From Alienimonas chondri (GTDB lineage: Bacteria; Planctomycetota; Planctomycetia; Planctomycetales; Planctomycetaceae): a DNA stretch of 64,000 nucleotides. Each line of letters opens with the position of its first letter. Within the stretch, counting starts at the first letter, position 1. Shown piece after piece: positions 16,792-64,000 of this stretch. The stretch is taken from the NCBI RefSeq assembly GCF_013036045.1, contig NZ_WTPX01000001.1:1-64000 (forward strand), given 5' to 3'. The notes under the pieces are model-generated. The model worked only from the letters and a program-made list of their open reading frames with translations, did not search any database and was not told the origin of the DNA. Position numbers and translations under genes: made by a program.

Positions 16792-16824
16792 ATTGTCCCG
16801 GACGCTTCAGGCGTCCGGGACAAT
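16792..16824. terminator. Strong hairpin after the sugar epimerase gene
   Basis: ATTGTCCCGGACGC-TTCAG-GCGTCCGGGACAAT is a perfect 14-bp stem with a 5-nt loop, 20 bp beyond the stop codon and 24 bp before the hemQ start. No T-run follows. The CCCGGACGC/GCGTCCGGG core is shared with the hairpin at 34309-34345. Confidence 0.8.
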
Positions 16825-34253: not shown

Positions 34254-34394
34254 GGCGAGCGGCGGGGCGTCAGCCCCCCGTGCCCTGAATCGTTCGACAG
34301 GCAAATAAAAAGCGACCCGGACGCTCCGAGCGTCCGGGTCGCTTTGCTTTGTACCAAACTCAAAGGCTCAGGGGGCTGACGCCCCCCGCTCGCC
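34254..34394. repeat. Inverted pair of GGGGCGTCAGCCCC-type repeats flanking a terminator
   Basis: The left copy (34254-34288) reads GGCGAGCGGCGGGGCGTCAG and on; the right copy (34368-34394) is nearly its reverse complement (TCAGGGGGCTGACGCC and on). Each is itself a small hairpin, GGGGC-GTCA-GCCCC, and the outer GGCGAGC/GCTCGCC ends also pair. They bracket the terminator at 34309-34345, the architecture of a BIME (paired REP elements). Lies between convergent leuB and the BI-1 gene. Confidence 0.85.
34309..34345. terminator. Bidirectional intrinsic terminator between leuB and the BI-1 gene
   Basis: AAAGCGACCCGGACGCTC-C-GAGCGTCCGGGTCGCTTT gives 18-bp perfect arms around a single central base; in practice the loop would be TCCGA. 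An A-tract precedes (AAATAAAA) and a T-rich stretch follows (GCTTTG), so it works as a classic terminator from either side. The core CCCGGACGC/GCGTCCGGG also occurs in the hairpin at 16792-16824. Confidence 0.92.
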
Positions 34395-35845: not shown

Positions 35846-35919
35846 CTCCAAGACCAAGAACTCAAGAACCAAATGACGAGCAGTCGATCGCTTTGGGATC
35901 TTGATTTCTTGGTCTTGAG
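35846..35919. repeat. AT-rich inverted repeat between convergent stops
   Basis: The left arm CAAGACCAAGAACTCAAGAA (with flanks 35846-35873) and right arm TCTTGATTTCTTGGTCTTG (35892-35919) are imperfect reverse complements, about 18 of 20 core bases matching, with an 18-nt loop. It can fold from either strand and could serve as a bidirectional terminator between the cyclophilin gene and the phosphatase-family gene. It is unusually AT-rich for this window. Confidence 0.75.
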
Positions 35920-57943: not shown

Positions 57944-58173
57944 GGGGGGCGAACGAGACGAACTGCGGCGGAGCGGCGAATGCCGGCGGGTATCCTAGAT
58001 CGCAGGAGCGTGGGGCCGACCGCTCCCGGGGCAAGCCGCGTCGTCCGGCCACGGATTGACACCCGATCCCAGTCTGACCCGGATGATCCTCCCGGGGAAC
58101 GTCCCGCGAGCCGCTGATCGCTCCCCGACCGTTTGCGTCCGGGGCCTCGGGGGGGCACCCTGCCCGGTCCATT

Positions 58174-59634
58174 TTGGACTTCGCTTCCGCCGTTCCGCTC
58201 ACACGCCCGCGGTCGATCGCCCGCCCCGCCCCGATCGAGTTCGCCTGTCCGCATTGCCGGGCCATTCTGCGCGCGCCGCATGACGCCGCCGGCGCCCTCG
58301 GCGACTGCCCCCACTGCGAAAAGGAAGCCCGCATCCCCGGTGGCGCGGCGCCGGAGGCCGCGGATCCGCTGGCGTTCATTCCCGTCGGCGCCCCCCTCGA
58401 TCACGAGGCGGTGCAGGCCGCCATCGAGCAGTCGGCGCCGGAGCGCACGCCCGATGTCTCCGACTCGGCAAAGTCCGGCTCCGCGAAGGAGGAGGGCGAA
58501 CCGGCCAAGACGCCGATCGCGACCGCGGAGCGCTCGCCCGACGCCGCGGCGCCTGACGGCGGAGTGGTGTTCGCACCGGCCGACGGGGACGACGCGGCGC
58601 CTGTCACGTTCGAATCCGCTGACGACTCGGACGGCCTGCCGGGCGACGACGCGGCGCCGGACAAATATGACGACGAGTACGCCCCCGCGGCCGCCAGGGG
58701 GCCGGCGCCGAGACGTGGGACGCGCCGCCGGAAGCGGGGGAATCCGGTCTTGGCGAGCGTGGTGTTGCTCCTGCTGCTCGGCGGAATCGGGGCGGCCGGG
58801 TGGGTGATGTACGACCGGCTCGCCGGGCCCCCGCCGGTCGGGTTGGCGGCGACGGAACTCTCCGCGGACGCCGTTCCGCCCGCTTCCTTCCGCCCCCCCG
58901 CCGGCGTCGATCAGGAGGCGCTGCGGAAGGTCGAAGCCGGCGTGCCGTTCAACAGCCCGGTCCTCGAAGTGCTGCTGACCGGGACGCGATCCCGGTCCGG
59001 CGGCGGCGGTGGCCGACAACCGGAACCTGACGCGGGCGGCATGACGGACCGCGGCGGTATGTCCGACGCCGCTCCCATGGACGGAGAACCGGACGACGAC
59101 CCCGCGGACGAAGAGGCCAGCGACGGCGAGATGGCCGCGGACAGGGACGACGCGGCTGAGCCGAACGCCGATCCGCCGGCGGGGGCGCCGTCGATCGAAG
59201 AGGGATCGATCCGAGTGGAGATCCGCCCCGGATCCGCCGGCCGATTGGTTCGGGTCTCCCCCCGCGAGCGCCCGGAGGTCGCGGCATGGATCGAAGCGAA
59301 CACTGGGCTGTACGGCGAAAAACAGCTCGCGTTCGTGAAGGCCCGCGGGGAGTTCTTCGCCGCCGTCCCGGCGGGGAAGCAGACCGCGGAGTACCGCAAT
59401 TCCGTCGCCTTGAACGTGGCGACGGAGGCGTTGGGCTGGAGCGTCGAGGCGGTCGCCGACGGCCGCGTCGTCCCCTGCTGTCGGGAGACCGAGTCGGGCG
59501 ACCTGCTGTTCTGCATCCCCCGGACCGCCGCCGGCTTCACGATCCGCGGCCGCGACATCCCGGGGCAGGGCCGCGTGTTTCCGTACGAATTCATCGCGAC
59601 GCTCGATCCGCCGCCCGGCGGCGCGGGGGAGTAG
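58174..59634 (+). CDS. Zinc-ribbon, single-helix membrane protein
   Basis: A 486-residue protein with a TTG start at 58174 that is not certain. A zinc ribbon is at Cys25/Cys28 and Cys45/Cys48 (FACPHCRAIL, LGDCPHCEKE), then an acidic low-complexity stretch, a membrane helix at about 190-212 (VLASVVLLLLLGGIGAAGWV), an exported acidic Gly/Asp-rich segment, and a C-terminal domain with VRVSPRERPEVAAWIEANTG, EKQLAFVKARGEFFAAVPA and CRETESGDLLFCIP. The zinc-ribbon-plus-membrane-helix layout is common in planctomycetes. The C-terminal domain is unrecognised. Confidence 0.78.
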   Translation: MDFASAVPLTRPRSIARPAPIEFACPHCRAILRAPHDAAGALGDCPHCEKEARIPGGAAPEAADPLAFIPVGAPLDHEAVQAAIEQSAPERTPDVSDSAKSGSAKEEGEPAKTPIATAERSPDAAAPDGGVVFAPADGDDAAPVTFESADDSDGLPGDDAAPDKYDDEYAPAAARGPAPRRGTRRRKRGNPVLASVVLLLLLGGIGAAGWVMYDRLAGPPPVGLAATELSADAVPPASFRPPAGVDQEALRKVEAGVPFNSPVLEVLLTGTRSRSGGGGGRQPEPDAGGMTDRGGMSDAAPMDGEPDDDPADEEASDGEMAADRDDAAEPNADPPAGAPSIEEGSIRVEIRPGSAGRLVRVSPRERPEVAAWIEANTGLYGEKQLAFVKARGEFFAAVPAGKQTAEYRNSVALNVATEALGWSVEAVADGRVVPCCRETESGDLLFCIPRTAAGFTIRGRDIPGQGRVFPYEFIATLDPPPGGAGE

Positions 59635-59673
59635 ACTACGGTCGCCCTGCTTGCCTGCGTCGAAGGCTCACCG

Positions 59674-60942
59674 ATGTCCGCGTTCCTGCTGTATCTGCCC
59701 GCCGGCATCGCCGCGGTCGTCTTGATCTGGATTGCGGCCCGGGTGAGGTCGGCGTACTTCGGCTGGACGGCAGCGACGACGTTCGGCGTGGCGCTGCTCC
59801 TCTGCGGCTTCAATCCGGGTCTCGGCGCGATCCCCCACACGTTAGGGGCGCTGTCGTGCGGGTTCGCCGTTGCGATGTTGCGGGCCTGCGGGGTGAAGCC
59901 AAAATGGGCCGCGGCGGGCGTCGGCGCGACGTTCATGGCAGCCTGCGCCGTCGACGCGGGACGCTTCTACGCGTCGGAATATCGACCTTGGCTGGCGGAG
60001 GTGACGGAACAGCGTGAGGCCCACCCCGCCGTCCCCCGATCGACCCGGCTGCCGCGGACGGAACCGGTCGTCGCACAATCGGCTCCCTACCGCAGCGACG
60101 AGAAGTGGGACCAGTATTTCTCTGAAACTGAACCGTCGTGGCACAGCGATGAACGCCCCGGCGACGGCTTCCGGCGGGTGATGGGGCGGTTGCACTCAGT
60201 GCACACCGATTTCGCCGATCGCTTCGCCCAGCGAATGGGGTTTGGCATCCACCGCATGCCCCAGGTGCAATGGGAGCTACGCGAGTTCAAAACCTTCCCC
60301 GCCGCCCCGACGGGCAGCGAACGCATCCGGCAGCCGAGTGGCGTGAGCGGTGAAGACCCGAAGGCTGCGACGGCGGTCATCGGCACGGAGCGGGCGGCGA
60401 TCGCCGCGTGGCACAGGGAGCGGGGGATCGACTTCGCGAACGAAGCCGGCTTCGGCGCGTTCGGCGATCGAGGACCGGGATACGGGGACTTGCTCCCGAA
60501 AGACTTCGATCCCGCCAGCGGCGAGGGACCGTTCCTGATCGGCTTCGAATCGCACGCCGCACAAACCGCGGCCGACGAGGAACCGTTACCGGGATGGTCG
60601 CTGACCGGGTTCGAGTTGATCGGTCTGATCCTCCACGACGAACCGGTCGCCTATCAGTCCGACTACCTGCCGATCGCCGGGCCGAACGCCCCGCACAACA
60701 TCCGACCGCTGACCGACTTTGAAGCGAAGGGGCTGGCCCGGCTCGCGATGGGCGAGTGGGTCTACGCCGAGGCCGATGCCGAACGATTCCGGGCCGTCGG
60801 CGCCCTCACCGCCGCGACCGCCTGCGCGGACTGTCACGCCGTCGAGGAGGGTCGCTTGTTGGGCGCCCTGAGCTACGAGTTTCTGCGGTCCCCCAGCGCT
60901 GAGGGGATCGGCCCCGGGGCGGGCGACGGTGGGATCGACTGA
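59674..60942 (+). CDS. Membrane-anchored protein with one c-type heme site
   Basis: A 422-residue protein. Three hydrophobic segments near the N-terminus (LLYLPAGIAAVVLIWIAARV, WTAATTFGVALLLCGFNPGL, AAAGVGATFMAACAVDAGRF) anchor it. The bulk is a soluble part with FRRVMGRLHSVHTDFADRFA and LTGFELIGLILHDEPVAYQS, and a single CADCH heme-binding motif follows (TAATACADCHAVEEGRLLGA) about 35 residues before the end. Domain order recalls planctomycete cytochrome-like membrane proteins. It is 48 bp upstream of the PVC cytochrome, so an electron-transfer pair is possible. Confidence 0.75.
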   Translation: MSAFLLYLPAGIAAVVLIWIAARVRSAYFGWTAATTFGVALLLCGFNPGLGAIPHTLGALSCGFAVAMLRACGVKPKWAAAGVGATFMAACAVDAGRFYASEYRPWLAEVTEQREAHPAVPRSTRLPRTEPVVAQSAPYRSDEKWDQYFSETEPSWHSDERPGDGFRRVMGRLHSVHTDFADRFAQRMGFGIHRMPQVQWELREFKTFPAAPTGSERIRQPSGVSGEDPKAATAVIGTERAAIAAWHRERGIDFANEAGFGAFGDRGPGYGDLLPKDFDPASGEGPFLIGFESHAAQTAADEEPLPGWSLTGFELIGLILHDEPVAYQSDYLPIAGPNAPHNIRPLTDFEAKGLARLAMGEWVYAEADAERFRAVGALTAATACADCHAVEEGRLLGALSYEFLRSPSAEGIGPGAGDGGID

Positions 60943-60990
60943 CGCGGGTGCGTAGGCTGCCGGCCGTCGTACGCATCCATCGTAGCCGCT

Positions 60991-63900
60991 ATGTCTCTCC
61001 GTCGTCTGTCGTTCGCCCTGATCTTGTTAGCTGGCCCGGCGTTCTTGCCGGCCGGGGAGTTGAAATACGCCGGCTTGCCGGCCGAAGAGGCGGCGGCGGT
61101 CATGCGGTTGCCGGACGGCTTCCGGGTCGTGCCGTTCGCGGCGGAACCGGACGTGGTGCAGCCGATCGCGATGACGATCGACCACCGCGGCCGGCTGTGG
61201 GTCGCCGAGGGGCACAGCTACCCGGTCAAACGGCCGGAGGGCGAGGGGAAGGACCGCATCCTGATTTTCGAGGACACCGACGGCGACGGCCGGCATGACG
61301 TGCGGAAGGTCTTCGCGGAGGGGCTGAACCTCGTCAGCGGCTTGGAAGTCGGCTTCGGCGGGGTGTTCGTCGGGCAGGCGCCGCACCTGCTGTTCATCCC
61401 GGACGCCGACGGCGACGACGTGCCGGACGGCCCGCCGGAGGTGCTGCTCGACGGCTGGCACGACGAAGACACCCACGAAACGCTGAACTCCTTCATCTGG
61501 GGACCGGACGGCTGGCTCTACGGCTGCCACGGCGTGTTCACCCACTCGCGGGTCGGCCCGCCAGGCACGCCGGACGATCAGCGGGTGCCGATTAACGCCG
61601 GCATCTGGCGGTATCACCCGACCAGCCGGGCGTTCGAGGTCTTCGCCCACGGCACCAGCAACCCGTGGGGCGTGGACTTCGACGAACGCGGCCAGAGCTT
61701 TCTGACCTGCTGCGTGATCCCGCACCTGTTCCACGTGATCCCCGGGGCCCGCTACTTCCGTCAGGCGGGCCGGCATTTCGATCCGCACGTCTACGAAGAC
61801 ATCCCCACGATCGCCAAACACCGACACTTCGTCGGGCACCAGTGGACGCAGGCGGACAGGGAGGCCAGCCTCGACTTCGGCGGCGGACACGCCCACGCGG
61901 GAGCGATGATCTATCAGGGGGACGCCTGGCCGGCCGAGTTTCGTGGCCAACTGCTGATGAATAACATTCACGGCGCGCGGCTGAACGCCGATTCGCTCAC
62001 GCCGTCCGGCAGCGGATTCGTCGGCGATCGCCTGCCGGACTTCTGCCTGACGGACGATCTCGCCAGTCAGATGCTCTACCTGCGAACCGGCCCGGACGGG
62101 AACGTGTTCGTAATCGACTGGTACGACACGAACCAGTGCCACCACCGCGGGATCGAAAACCACGACCGCTCGAACGGCCGGATCTGGAAGATTGTCCACG
62201 AGAACCCTGTAACGCCGAGGCCCCGCGGGGCCTCGGCGTTACAGGGGACGAGCGAGGAACTGGTCGATCTCCTGACGCACGAGAACGTCTTCCAACGCCG
62301 ACAGGCTCAGCGGTTGCTTCAAGAACGCGGCCCGGACGAAGCCGCGGTCGAAGCGTTAGGCAAAATGTACTCTTCCGCCGACTCCCTCGACCGTCTGCGG
62401 GCCCTGTGGGCGCTGACCGCGACCGCGACGCTGACCGGCGAACAACTGGACGCGGCCTTGGGCGACGAAGACGCTGACGTCCGACTGTGGGGCGTCCGGC
62501 TGACCGGCCAATCGCTCCCGGCGCTGCCGATGAGCGGCGGCATCCCCCGCGCGATCGGCGACTTGCCCCCGCTGCCGGCGTTCGGCGATCGGCTGGACGT
62601 CTTGGTTGAGATGGCGAAGTCGGACGACGACGCTTCGGTACGGCTGGAACTCGCCTCCCTGGCTCAGCGGTTGCCGGTCGACCAGCGGTGGGGACTGCTT
62701 GAAGCGCTGCTGGCGCGGGGCGAAGACGCGGACGATCACAACTTGCCGCTGATGCTGTGGTACGCCTTCGAACCGTTGGTGCCGGCGGACGCTGAACGCG
62801 CGTTGTCGGTCGCGTTGGCGGGCGAGATCCCGACTGTCCGGCGGCTGGCGTTGCGGCGGGTGGGCGAATTGGGCACGGCGGAATCGCGTGCAGCGATCGT
62901 GTCGGTGATTTCCGATTCGGCCGAGCGCCCCGAGCGCGCCCTCGAAGCGCTGGCGGGGCTGAGATCCGCGATCGCCGGTCGTGACGTCGAGCGGCCGGCC
63001 GGCTGGGATGCGGCGCTCACGGCTCTGGCGCTCAGCGACGATCTGCGAGTTCTGGATCGCGCGCAGGGACTGGATTACCGCTTCGGCACCGCGGAGGCGG
63101 GACAGGAACGGCAGGCGGTCCTCGCCGATGAGGCCGCTTCCCTCGAACGTCGCCGCGGGGCGCTGGCGGACCTGCTGGACGTATCGCCCCGGGAGTTACC
63201 GATTTTCCTACGGCGCCTGATCAGCGCCGAGCCGGCCAGCCCGTTCGCGGCGGATCTGATTCGCGGATTGGGCCGCACGAACGACCCGGCGAACGCTCCG
63301 TTCCTGAGGCAGTATTACCCCCGCTTCGCCCCCGCCGCGAAACGGGCGGCGCTCGCGGTATTGGTCGCTCGCCCCGTCGGCGCCGACCTGCTTCTGACCG
63401 CCATGGCGAACGAAGAGATTCCCACGGTCGACCTCACCGCCGACCTGGCTCGACAGATTCGCAGCTTGAACGATGAGGGGCTGACCGCCCGGTTGCGAGA
63501 CGTTTGGGGCACGGTCGCGGAGACGGATGCGGACCGCCTTCGTCTGATCGACTCGTGGAAGCGAAAGGTCGCCGCGGGCAACAACGACAGCGACGTGACG
63601 CCGGACCTCGTCGCCGGCCGGGCGCTGTTCAAGAAGACCTGCGGGCAGTGCCACGAGTTGTACGGCGAGGGGGAGAAGGTCGGCCCCGGCTTGACCGGAT
63701 CGAACCGCAGAGACCTCGATTACCTGCTGTCCAACATCCTCGCCCCGTCCGCCGTGATGGCAAAGGACTACCGGCCGACCGTGTTCCTGCTTGCCGACGG
63801 TCGCGTGCTGACCGGTTTGATTCAGGCCAAAACCGACGCCGTCGTGACGCTCGCCACCGCGGACGGCGAAGCGATCGTGCCGGTCGCGGACATCCTCGAA

Positions 63901-64000
63901 CGCACGGAGAGCGACACCTCGATGATGCCGGACGGCTTGCTCACGCCGCTGTCGACCGAGCAGGTGCGGAACCTCGTCGCCTATCTCCGCAGCGACAGCC
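60991..64000 (+). CDS. PVC-type heme-binding propeller/HEAT cytochrome (C-terminus beyond window)
   Basis: Over 1003 residues from ATG 60991, open to the right edge. A signal peptide (RLSFALILLAGPAFLPAGEL) leads into the PVC membrane-bound dehydrogenase-like propeller (ELKYAGLPAEEAAAVMRLPD, VAEGHSYPVKRPEGEGKDRI, NSFIWGPDGWLYGCHGVFTH, FAHGTSNPWGVDFDERGQSF, GGGHAHAGAMIYQGD). HEAT-like repeats follow, then the cytochrome part with KKTCGQCHELYG and GLTGSNRRDLDYLLSNILAP. These giant exported proteins are a planctomycete hallmark and may oxidise sugars or alcohols; the substrate is unknown. A 42-bp palindrome codes residues 405-419. Confidence 0.92.
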   Translation, partial: MSLRRLSFALILLAGPAFLPAGELKYAGLPAEEAAAVMRLPDGFRVVPFAAEPDVVQPIAMTIDHRGRLWVAEGHSYPVKRPEGEGKDRILIFEDTDGDGRHDVRKVFAEGLNLVSGLEVGFGGVFVGQAPHLLFIPDADGDDVPDGPPEVLLDGWHDEDTHETLNSFIWGPDGWLYGCHGVFTHSRVGPPGTPDDQRVPINAGIWRYHPTSRAFEVFAHGTSNPWGVDFDERGQSFLTCCVIPHLFHVIPGARYFRQAGRHFDPHVYEDIPTIAKHRHFVGHQWTQADREASLDFGGGHAHAGAMIYQGDAWPAEFRGQLLMNNIHGARLNADSLTPSGSGFVGDRLPDFCLTDDLASQMLYLRTGPDGNVFVIDWYDTNQCHHRGIENHDRSNGRIWKIVHENPVTPRPRGASALQGTSEELVDLLTHENVFQRRQAQRLLQERGPDEAAVEALGKMYSSADSLDRLRALWALTATATLTGEQLDAALGDEDADVRLWGVRLTGQSLPALPMSGGIPRAIGDLPPLPAFGDRLDVLVEMAKSDDDASVRLELASLAQRLPVDQRWGLLEALLARGEDADDHNLPLMLWYAFEPLVPADAERALSVALAGEIPTVRRLALRRVGELGTAESRAAIVSVISDSAERPERALEALAGLRSAIAGRDVERPAGWDAALTALALSDDLRVLDRAQGLDYRFGTAEAGQERQAVLADEAASLERRRGALADLLDVSPRELPIFLRRLISAEPASPFAADLIRGLGRTNDPANAPFLRQYYPRFAPAAKRAALAVLVARPVGADLLLTAMANEEIPTVDLTADLARQIRSLNDEGLTARLRDVWGTVAETDADRLRLIDSWKRKVAAGNNDSDVTPDLVAGRALFKKTCGQCHELYGEGEKVGPGLTGSNRRDLDYLLSNILAPSAVMAKDYRPTVFLLADGRVLTGLIQAKTDAVVTLATADGEAIVPVADILERTESDTSMMPDGLLTPLSTEQVRNLVAYLRSDS
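62205..62246. repeat. Perfect 42-bp palindrome inside the PVC cytochrome gene
   Basis: CCCTGTAACGCCGAGGCCCC is followed after GC by its exact reverse complement, so all 42 bases are palindromic. It spans residues 405-419 (NPVTPRPRGASALQG), at the end of the propeller just before the HEAT region, and keeps the frame open. The high symmetry, Pro/Arg-rich coding sense and domain-border location suggest an inserted palindromic element. Confidence 0.95.

Follow-up and report, generated by a model that had tools for sequence, protein, structure and literature searches.

A loop-free palindrome translated within a DUF7133-cytochrome c gene of Alienimonas chondri is one copy of a dispersed, genus-specific, REP-like repeat family

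The window, i.e., the whole stretch of 64,000 nucleotides of the Alienimonas chondri genome analysed here, carries near its end a large open reading frame (Table 1), with 1003 codons as far as it was read. Residues 32-404 of its product form a DUF7133 domain, and a cytochrome c domain lies at the C terminus. Directly after the DUF7133 domain the gene runs through a perfect palindrome without a loop, CCCTGTAACGCCGAGGCCCCG-CGGGGCCTCGGCGTTACAGGG (here and below a single hyphen between arms marks the centre), which is in frame and encodes ..NPVTPRPRGASALQG... An inverted-repeat search placed its two arms, of 21 nt each, at 62205-62225 and 62226-62246, 100% complementary and 0 nt apart, as had been claimed in a previous sequence-only reading, which described a 42-bp tract symmetric at every base. 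The tract is the sole loop-free palindrome of such strength within the 64-kb window, in which no second occurrence of the arm was found (chance expectation 0.01). Folding of the element gives -46.2 kcal/mol as RNA (z -7.6) and -27 as DNA, and Rfam returned no family match at gathering score in 58000-64000. Elsewhere in the window, strong short-loop inverted repeats of terminator-like appearance are located between called genes at 16792-16824, 34309-34345 and 35849-35917.

Table 1. Coordinates of the host gene, the palindromic element and related features (window positions, unless preceded by a locus handle).
Feature	Location	Strand	Remarks
Host gene: DUF7133 domain, then repeat region, C-terminal cytochrome c	60991..63999	+	open frame of 1003+ residues
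Translated in-frame linker between DUF7133 and the next repeat region	62203..62253	+	..ENPVTPRPRGASALQGT..
Perfect 42-bp palindrome, Alienimonas family-A copy	62205..62246	.	4 additional matching base pairs at each outer end
34-bp family core	62209..62242	.	GTAACGCCGAGGCCCCG-CGGGGCCTCGGCGTTAC
Example copies of the second loop-free palindrome family	L107:15921, L120:18078, L139:12246		CTAAGCCGGANNCATGNNTCCGGCTTAG

The tract is one copy of a dispersed palindromic repeat of about 100 copies, specific to the genus Alienimonas and hereafter called family A. A search of the whole genome with the arm, allowing up to 3 mismatches, gave 28 + 22 = 50 matches versus 0 for the reversed control, and the family is present in both Alienimonas species, A. 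chondri and A. californiensis; the search of genome and relatives proposed in the sequence-only reading thus had a positive outcome, and the copies in A. californiensis rule out an element unique to A. chondri. Exact matches to the arm pattern GTAACGCNGAGG number 42 + 45 = 87 in A. chondri and 30 + 30 = 60 in A. californiensis, as compared with 0-6 in each of 57 other genomes. The covariance model R1, built from 23 copies, scores the window copy at 68.7 bits on both strands and has at least 150 strand matches in each Alienimonas genome, that is, at least about 75 places in each, with no match in 23 other genomes of the same bacterial family and, among the genomes of the class, a single weak, differently built match in each of 4. 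The 19 copies counted across 0.9 Mb of A. californiensis, taken without selection, extrapolate to about 115 per genome. The family core, GTAACGCCGAGGCYCCG-CGGRGCCTCGGCGTTAC, is 32-34 bp long; its inner 16 pairs are paired in 77-100% of the copies (most of them in 90-100%), while at pair 17 about 50% of the copies are paired and beyond, from pair 19 on, the level approaches chance, so that the extra symmetry of the window copy is partly a chance extension. Literature searches returned no description of this repeat for Alienimonas.

Other palindromes recur in these genomes. A second loop-free family, CTAAGCCGGANNCATGNNTCCGGCTTAG, has 34 copies in A. californiensis and 10 in A. chondri, with 4 copies in each of two other genera (G013 and G021) and 0 in 36 other genomes, and a third, CGCGACCGTCAGGGAGCCGGCTCCCTGACGGTCGCG, has 9 and 2 copies, respectively (e.g., L107:6470 and L140:11245); a relative of the latter that is 2 nt shorter, CGCGACCGATAGGGAGCGCTCCCTATCGGTCGCG, is found in G013 (L264 and L267) in 4 copies, one of which has compensated inner pairs. 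The palindrome GTTAG(C/T)CGC(T/C)CTCTT-N-AAGAG(A/G)GCG(A/G)CTAAC is repeated at L107:13588 and L149:4839. Recurrent GCGTCCCGGACCCT-N-AGGGTCCGGGACGC hairpins, some followed by a T run (L109:11684, L114:14479, L149:8388 and downstream of the DUF7133 orthologue in L151), look like repeated intrinsic terminators, and a palindrome GCGAAACCGCAAGCG..CGCTTGCGGTTTCGC near a Y1_Tnp match (L061, around 1324) may be a genuine A. chondri repeat of the RAYT/TIR type.

The location of family A with respect to genes, the latter called with a home-made codon-usage caller, was determined for two sets of copies. In the loosely defined set, 83 of 113 copies are intergenic, while intergenic DNA represents only about 15%, and about 80% of these intergenic copies are centred no more than 60 nt downstream of a stop codon, compared with 21% for intergenic points drawn at random. 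The stricter set comprises 88 copies; the element contains the TAA stop of the gene in 13 cases, 47 more copies lie within 60 nt of a stop, about 16 are inside genes and 12 elsewhere. Intragenic copies are always read in one of two open frames (VTPRPRGASAL or NAEAPRGLGVT), the third, which holds a TAA, never being used, and their hosts with clear domains include GyrA/ParC, SMC, MutL, a BioF-like aminotransferase, MotA/ExbB and a PSCyt/WD40 protein. The idea of a dispersed palindromic element is therefore upheld, with related copies translated inside other genes in one of two stop-free frames; by contrast, an element at home chiefly within genes, as the Rickettsia parallel drawn in the sequence-only reading would suggest, was not borne out: most copies lie outside genes, immediately 3' of stop codons, and the distribution is thus REP-like. 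This placement at gene ends suggests a 3'-end role.

Most copies that can be compared with the sister species keep their place, and keep their symmetry by paired changes. For each of the 11 testable 3'-end copies of A. chondri, an element is also present at the end of the orthologous A. californiensis gene, a count that includes one copy which failed the motif filter and was recognised in the sequence by eye, and that draws in part on A. californiensis tiles picked for carrying copies (the unpicked tiles give 3/3). As to the intragenic copies, 4 out of 7 are found at the same codons in both species (DUF7133, GyrA, WD40 and BioF-like) and 3 are not shared (MutL, SMC and a weak match in L189). 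Over 14 orthologous copy pairs, identity is 91% in the 32-bp core and 38% in the flanks. Among the 224 base pairs of these copies, 28 differ between the species, and 14 of the 28 form a standard pair in both species with a changed identity, i.e., they are compensated; at a per-site difference of about 0.094, some 2 double changes, 0.7 of them paired, would be expected in 224 pairs. Pair 10 may be C-G, G-C, A-T or T-A, being paired in 87 of 88 copies, and pair 4 is T-A in 22 copies of A. chondri, half of those in this genome, versus 1 in A. californiensis (Fisher P 8e-7). That positions of free identity still remain self-complementary speaks for a hairpin or cruciform, or for a process that copies one arm into the other; it speaks against a simple dyad to which a protein binds.

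In the DUF7133 gene itself, whose A. californiensis orthologue (77% protein identity) carries the element at the same codon, all ten residues of the element common to the two species use identical codons. Codon identity elsewhere in this gene being 63%, this corresponds to P ~0.01, and equally long identical runs exist; codon identity across the element in this gene alone is thus only mildly unusual, and this intragenic copy is best seen as a tolerated passenger.

How the element came to be part of the protein can be addressed by comparison with outgroups. The tract had been described as inserted in frame, and in frame it is, but an added peptide of 14 residues it is not. The linker extending from NGR to the next conserved Glu measures exactly 26 residues in 24 of 39 outgroup orthologues, and 29 and 30 residues in A. 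chondri and A. californiensis, respectively, which rules out a clean 14-residue insertion; as the element encodes 11-14 residues and the net gain over most outgroup linkers is 3-4, most of the old linker was lost and largely replaced. The extra residues are not exclusive to the A. chondri gene either, contrary to one expectation of the sequence-only reading, since the alignment reveals this element in A. californiensis as well, at the identical codon. The residues encoded by the element are present in none of the 39 outgroup DUF7133 orthologues, so the pattern named in advance as the mark of ordinary coding sequence (the same residues in all distant orthologues, no genomic copies) was not encountered. 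In other hosts, the BioF-like gene with the element shows almost no net length difference from outgroups, the GyrA element sits within an insert of about 40 residues that is specific to the genus, and where the element lies in the PSCyt/WD40 protein the outgroups carry about 100 additional residues, which, by eye, are Big2-like (L180:3991-8892, L233 vs L234-L238). Overall, replacement in a variable linker fits these alignments better than insertion, and could have occurred either in one event or by insertion followed by trimming.

The account that we favour, and consider fairly probable, is that the window tract belongs, as an intragenic member, to a REP-like family of loop-free palindromes that is specific to the genus, spread ancestrally, was retained at gene 3' ends and has passengers within genes. 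The elements would have spread in the ancestor of the genus Alienimonas, probably through a single-stranded hairpin form that was copied, and would have been retained because a hairpin or cruciform is useful at the 3' ends of genes, either in transcript 3'-end formation or protection or as insulation between neighbouring genes; we accordingly infer a molecular function as a 3'-end hairpin or DNA structure. Copies of the DUF7133 type may have landed in dispensable linkers, displacing most of the linker sequence, and could survive as translated passengers that are tolerated, their symmetry perhaps upheld by the same palindrome-restoring process. A farther-reaching version, according to which the roughly 100 genus-wide 3'-end palindromes would be actively kept self-complementary over long times, as the paired changes at positions of free identity and the species-wide switch of one base pair might indicate, through a DNA-level process or structure rather than an RNA hairpin, with in-gene copies replacing coding sequence roughly length-for-length and being maintained too, seems to us unlikely.

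Several other explanations can be weighed against the favoured account. The position of copies just 3' of stop codons, the conservation of this position, the very stable hairpin and the compensated pairs would all be expected of intrinsic transcription terminators or mRNA 3'-end stabilisers that act as RNA hairpins, the in-gene copies being masked by ribosomes. This is a possibility to be taken seriously, which on balance we doubt: a U tract is missing, with TTT within 7 nt after the stem in only 4 of 60 copies versus 16 of 65 other 3'-end hairpins of these genomes (e.g., GCGTCCCGGACCCT..AGGGTCCGGGACGC-TTTTT), intragenic copies exist, and on the mRNA strand G.U pairs are no commoner than A.C mismatches (18 vs 22), which gives no support to selection acting specifically on an RNA hairpin. 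Rather unlikely, in our judgement, is that the elements are REPs still or formerly mobile by means of a Y1/HUH (RAYT-type) transposase, and that conserved positions reflect old insertions only. Dispersal, copy number, 3' distribution and in-gene copies in replication and repair genes do match described REPs (PMC3733652), both Alienimonas genomes encode several Y1_Tnp proteins, the species differ in their subfamilies at pair 4, and the MutL and SMC genes of A. californiensis are without the element. Nevertheless, no family-A palindrome was found within ±1.5 kb of the 12 Y1_Tnp loci examined (7 in A. chondri and 5 in A. californiensis), a GTAG-type tag is virtually lacking, and all the testable 3'-end copies are common to both species. 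A lone arm-like match near Y1_Tnp was seen in L059.

It is quite improbable that the copies are dyad sites bound by a sequence-specific DNA-binding protein (a nucleoid organiser or regulator) regardless of secondary structure. A perfect dyad without a loop and a strongly conserved sequence, with the same half-site in both arms, would suit such a protein, yet positions 4 and 10 vary while staying complementary, which independent reading of half-sites would not require, and the sites hug stop codons. Finally, that the tract is ordinary coding sequence, palindromic by chance, is hardly credible, even though it is translated and common to two species: dozens of further copies, mostly non-coding, together with the outgroup alignment, rule out such a coincidence.

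The closest known counterparts of family A are the REPs, which, as described by Di Nocera et al. (2013), are 20-40 bp long and lie near gene 3' ends, sometimes supplying stop codons (PMC3733652). Some described REPs are located inside replication and repair genes, families occur in Planctomycetes and many in-gene copies exist in a verrucomicrobium (PMC3733652). The sequence-only reading knew of no description of in-gene elements for planctomycetes; already on record are palindromic repeats from Planctomycetes and, from other bacteria, intragenic REPs (PMC3733652). Similarly, the Alienimonas elements are short palindromes in many copies, mostly intergenic and near the 3' end of the upstream gene, they sometimes supply the stop codon, and a minority is in-gene, also in the replication and repair genes GyrA, SMC and MutL. 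On the other hand, they have no loop, their 3' positions are conserved between species with compensatory change, GTAG/GTGG is present at the stem base in only 1 of 88 copies, and CGTC, the signature of the superfamily that includes RPE-4/6, lies close to the base of the stem in no more than 10 of 88 (a raw count, in genomes of 68-71% GC); RPE-4 and RPE-6 are classed as CGTC REPs (PMC3733652). Since neither the GTAG and CGTC tags nor the RAYT linkage apply, the family is classed as a REP-like variant and not as a GTAG or CGTC REP, and we call it a family of REP-like, tag-less, transposase-orphan palindromes with intragenic members.

As with intrinsic terminators, the element is a stable hairpin 10-60 nt after stop codons, but it differs from them in having no U tract and a near-invariant sequence at about 100 sites. 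The RPEs are known chiefly from coding sequence. They resemble the Alienimonas elements in being palindromic, translated in frame inside unrelated genes and tolerated in linkers, whereas the Alienimonas family is chiefly extragenic (16 of 88 copies inside genes); two of its three frames are open. REP-type repeats, in turn, are usually treated as transposase-dependent and evolutionarily labile. The Alienimonas family, with no recognised tag or adjacent transposase, nonetheless occupies the same gene ends (11/11 testable) and the same genes (4/7) in two well-diverged species. With its core identity amid saturated flanks and its clear compensatory change, it lends itself naturally to the question of whether selection, correction or inheritance alone accounts for such palindromes, and also to that of how large proteins, such as gyrase, a BioF-like enzyme and the PVC cytochromes, absorb them.
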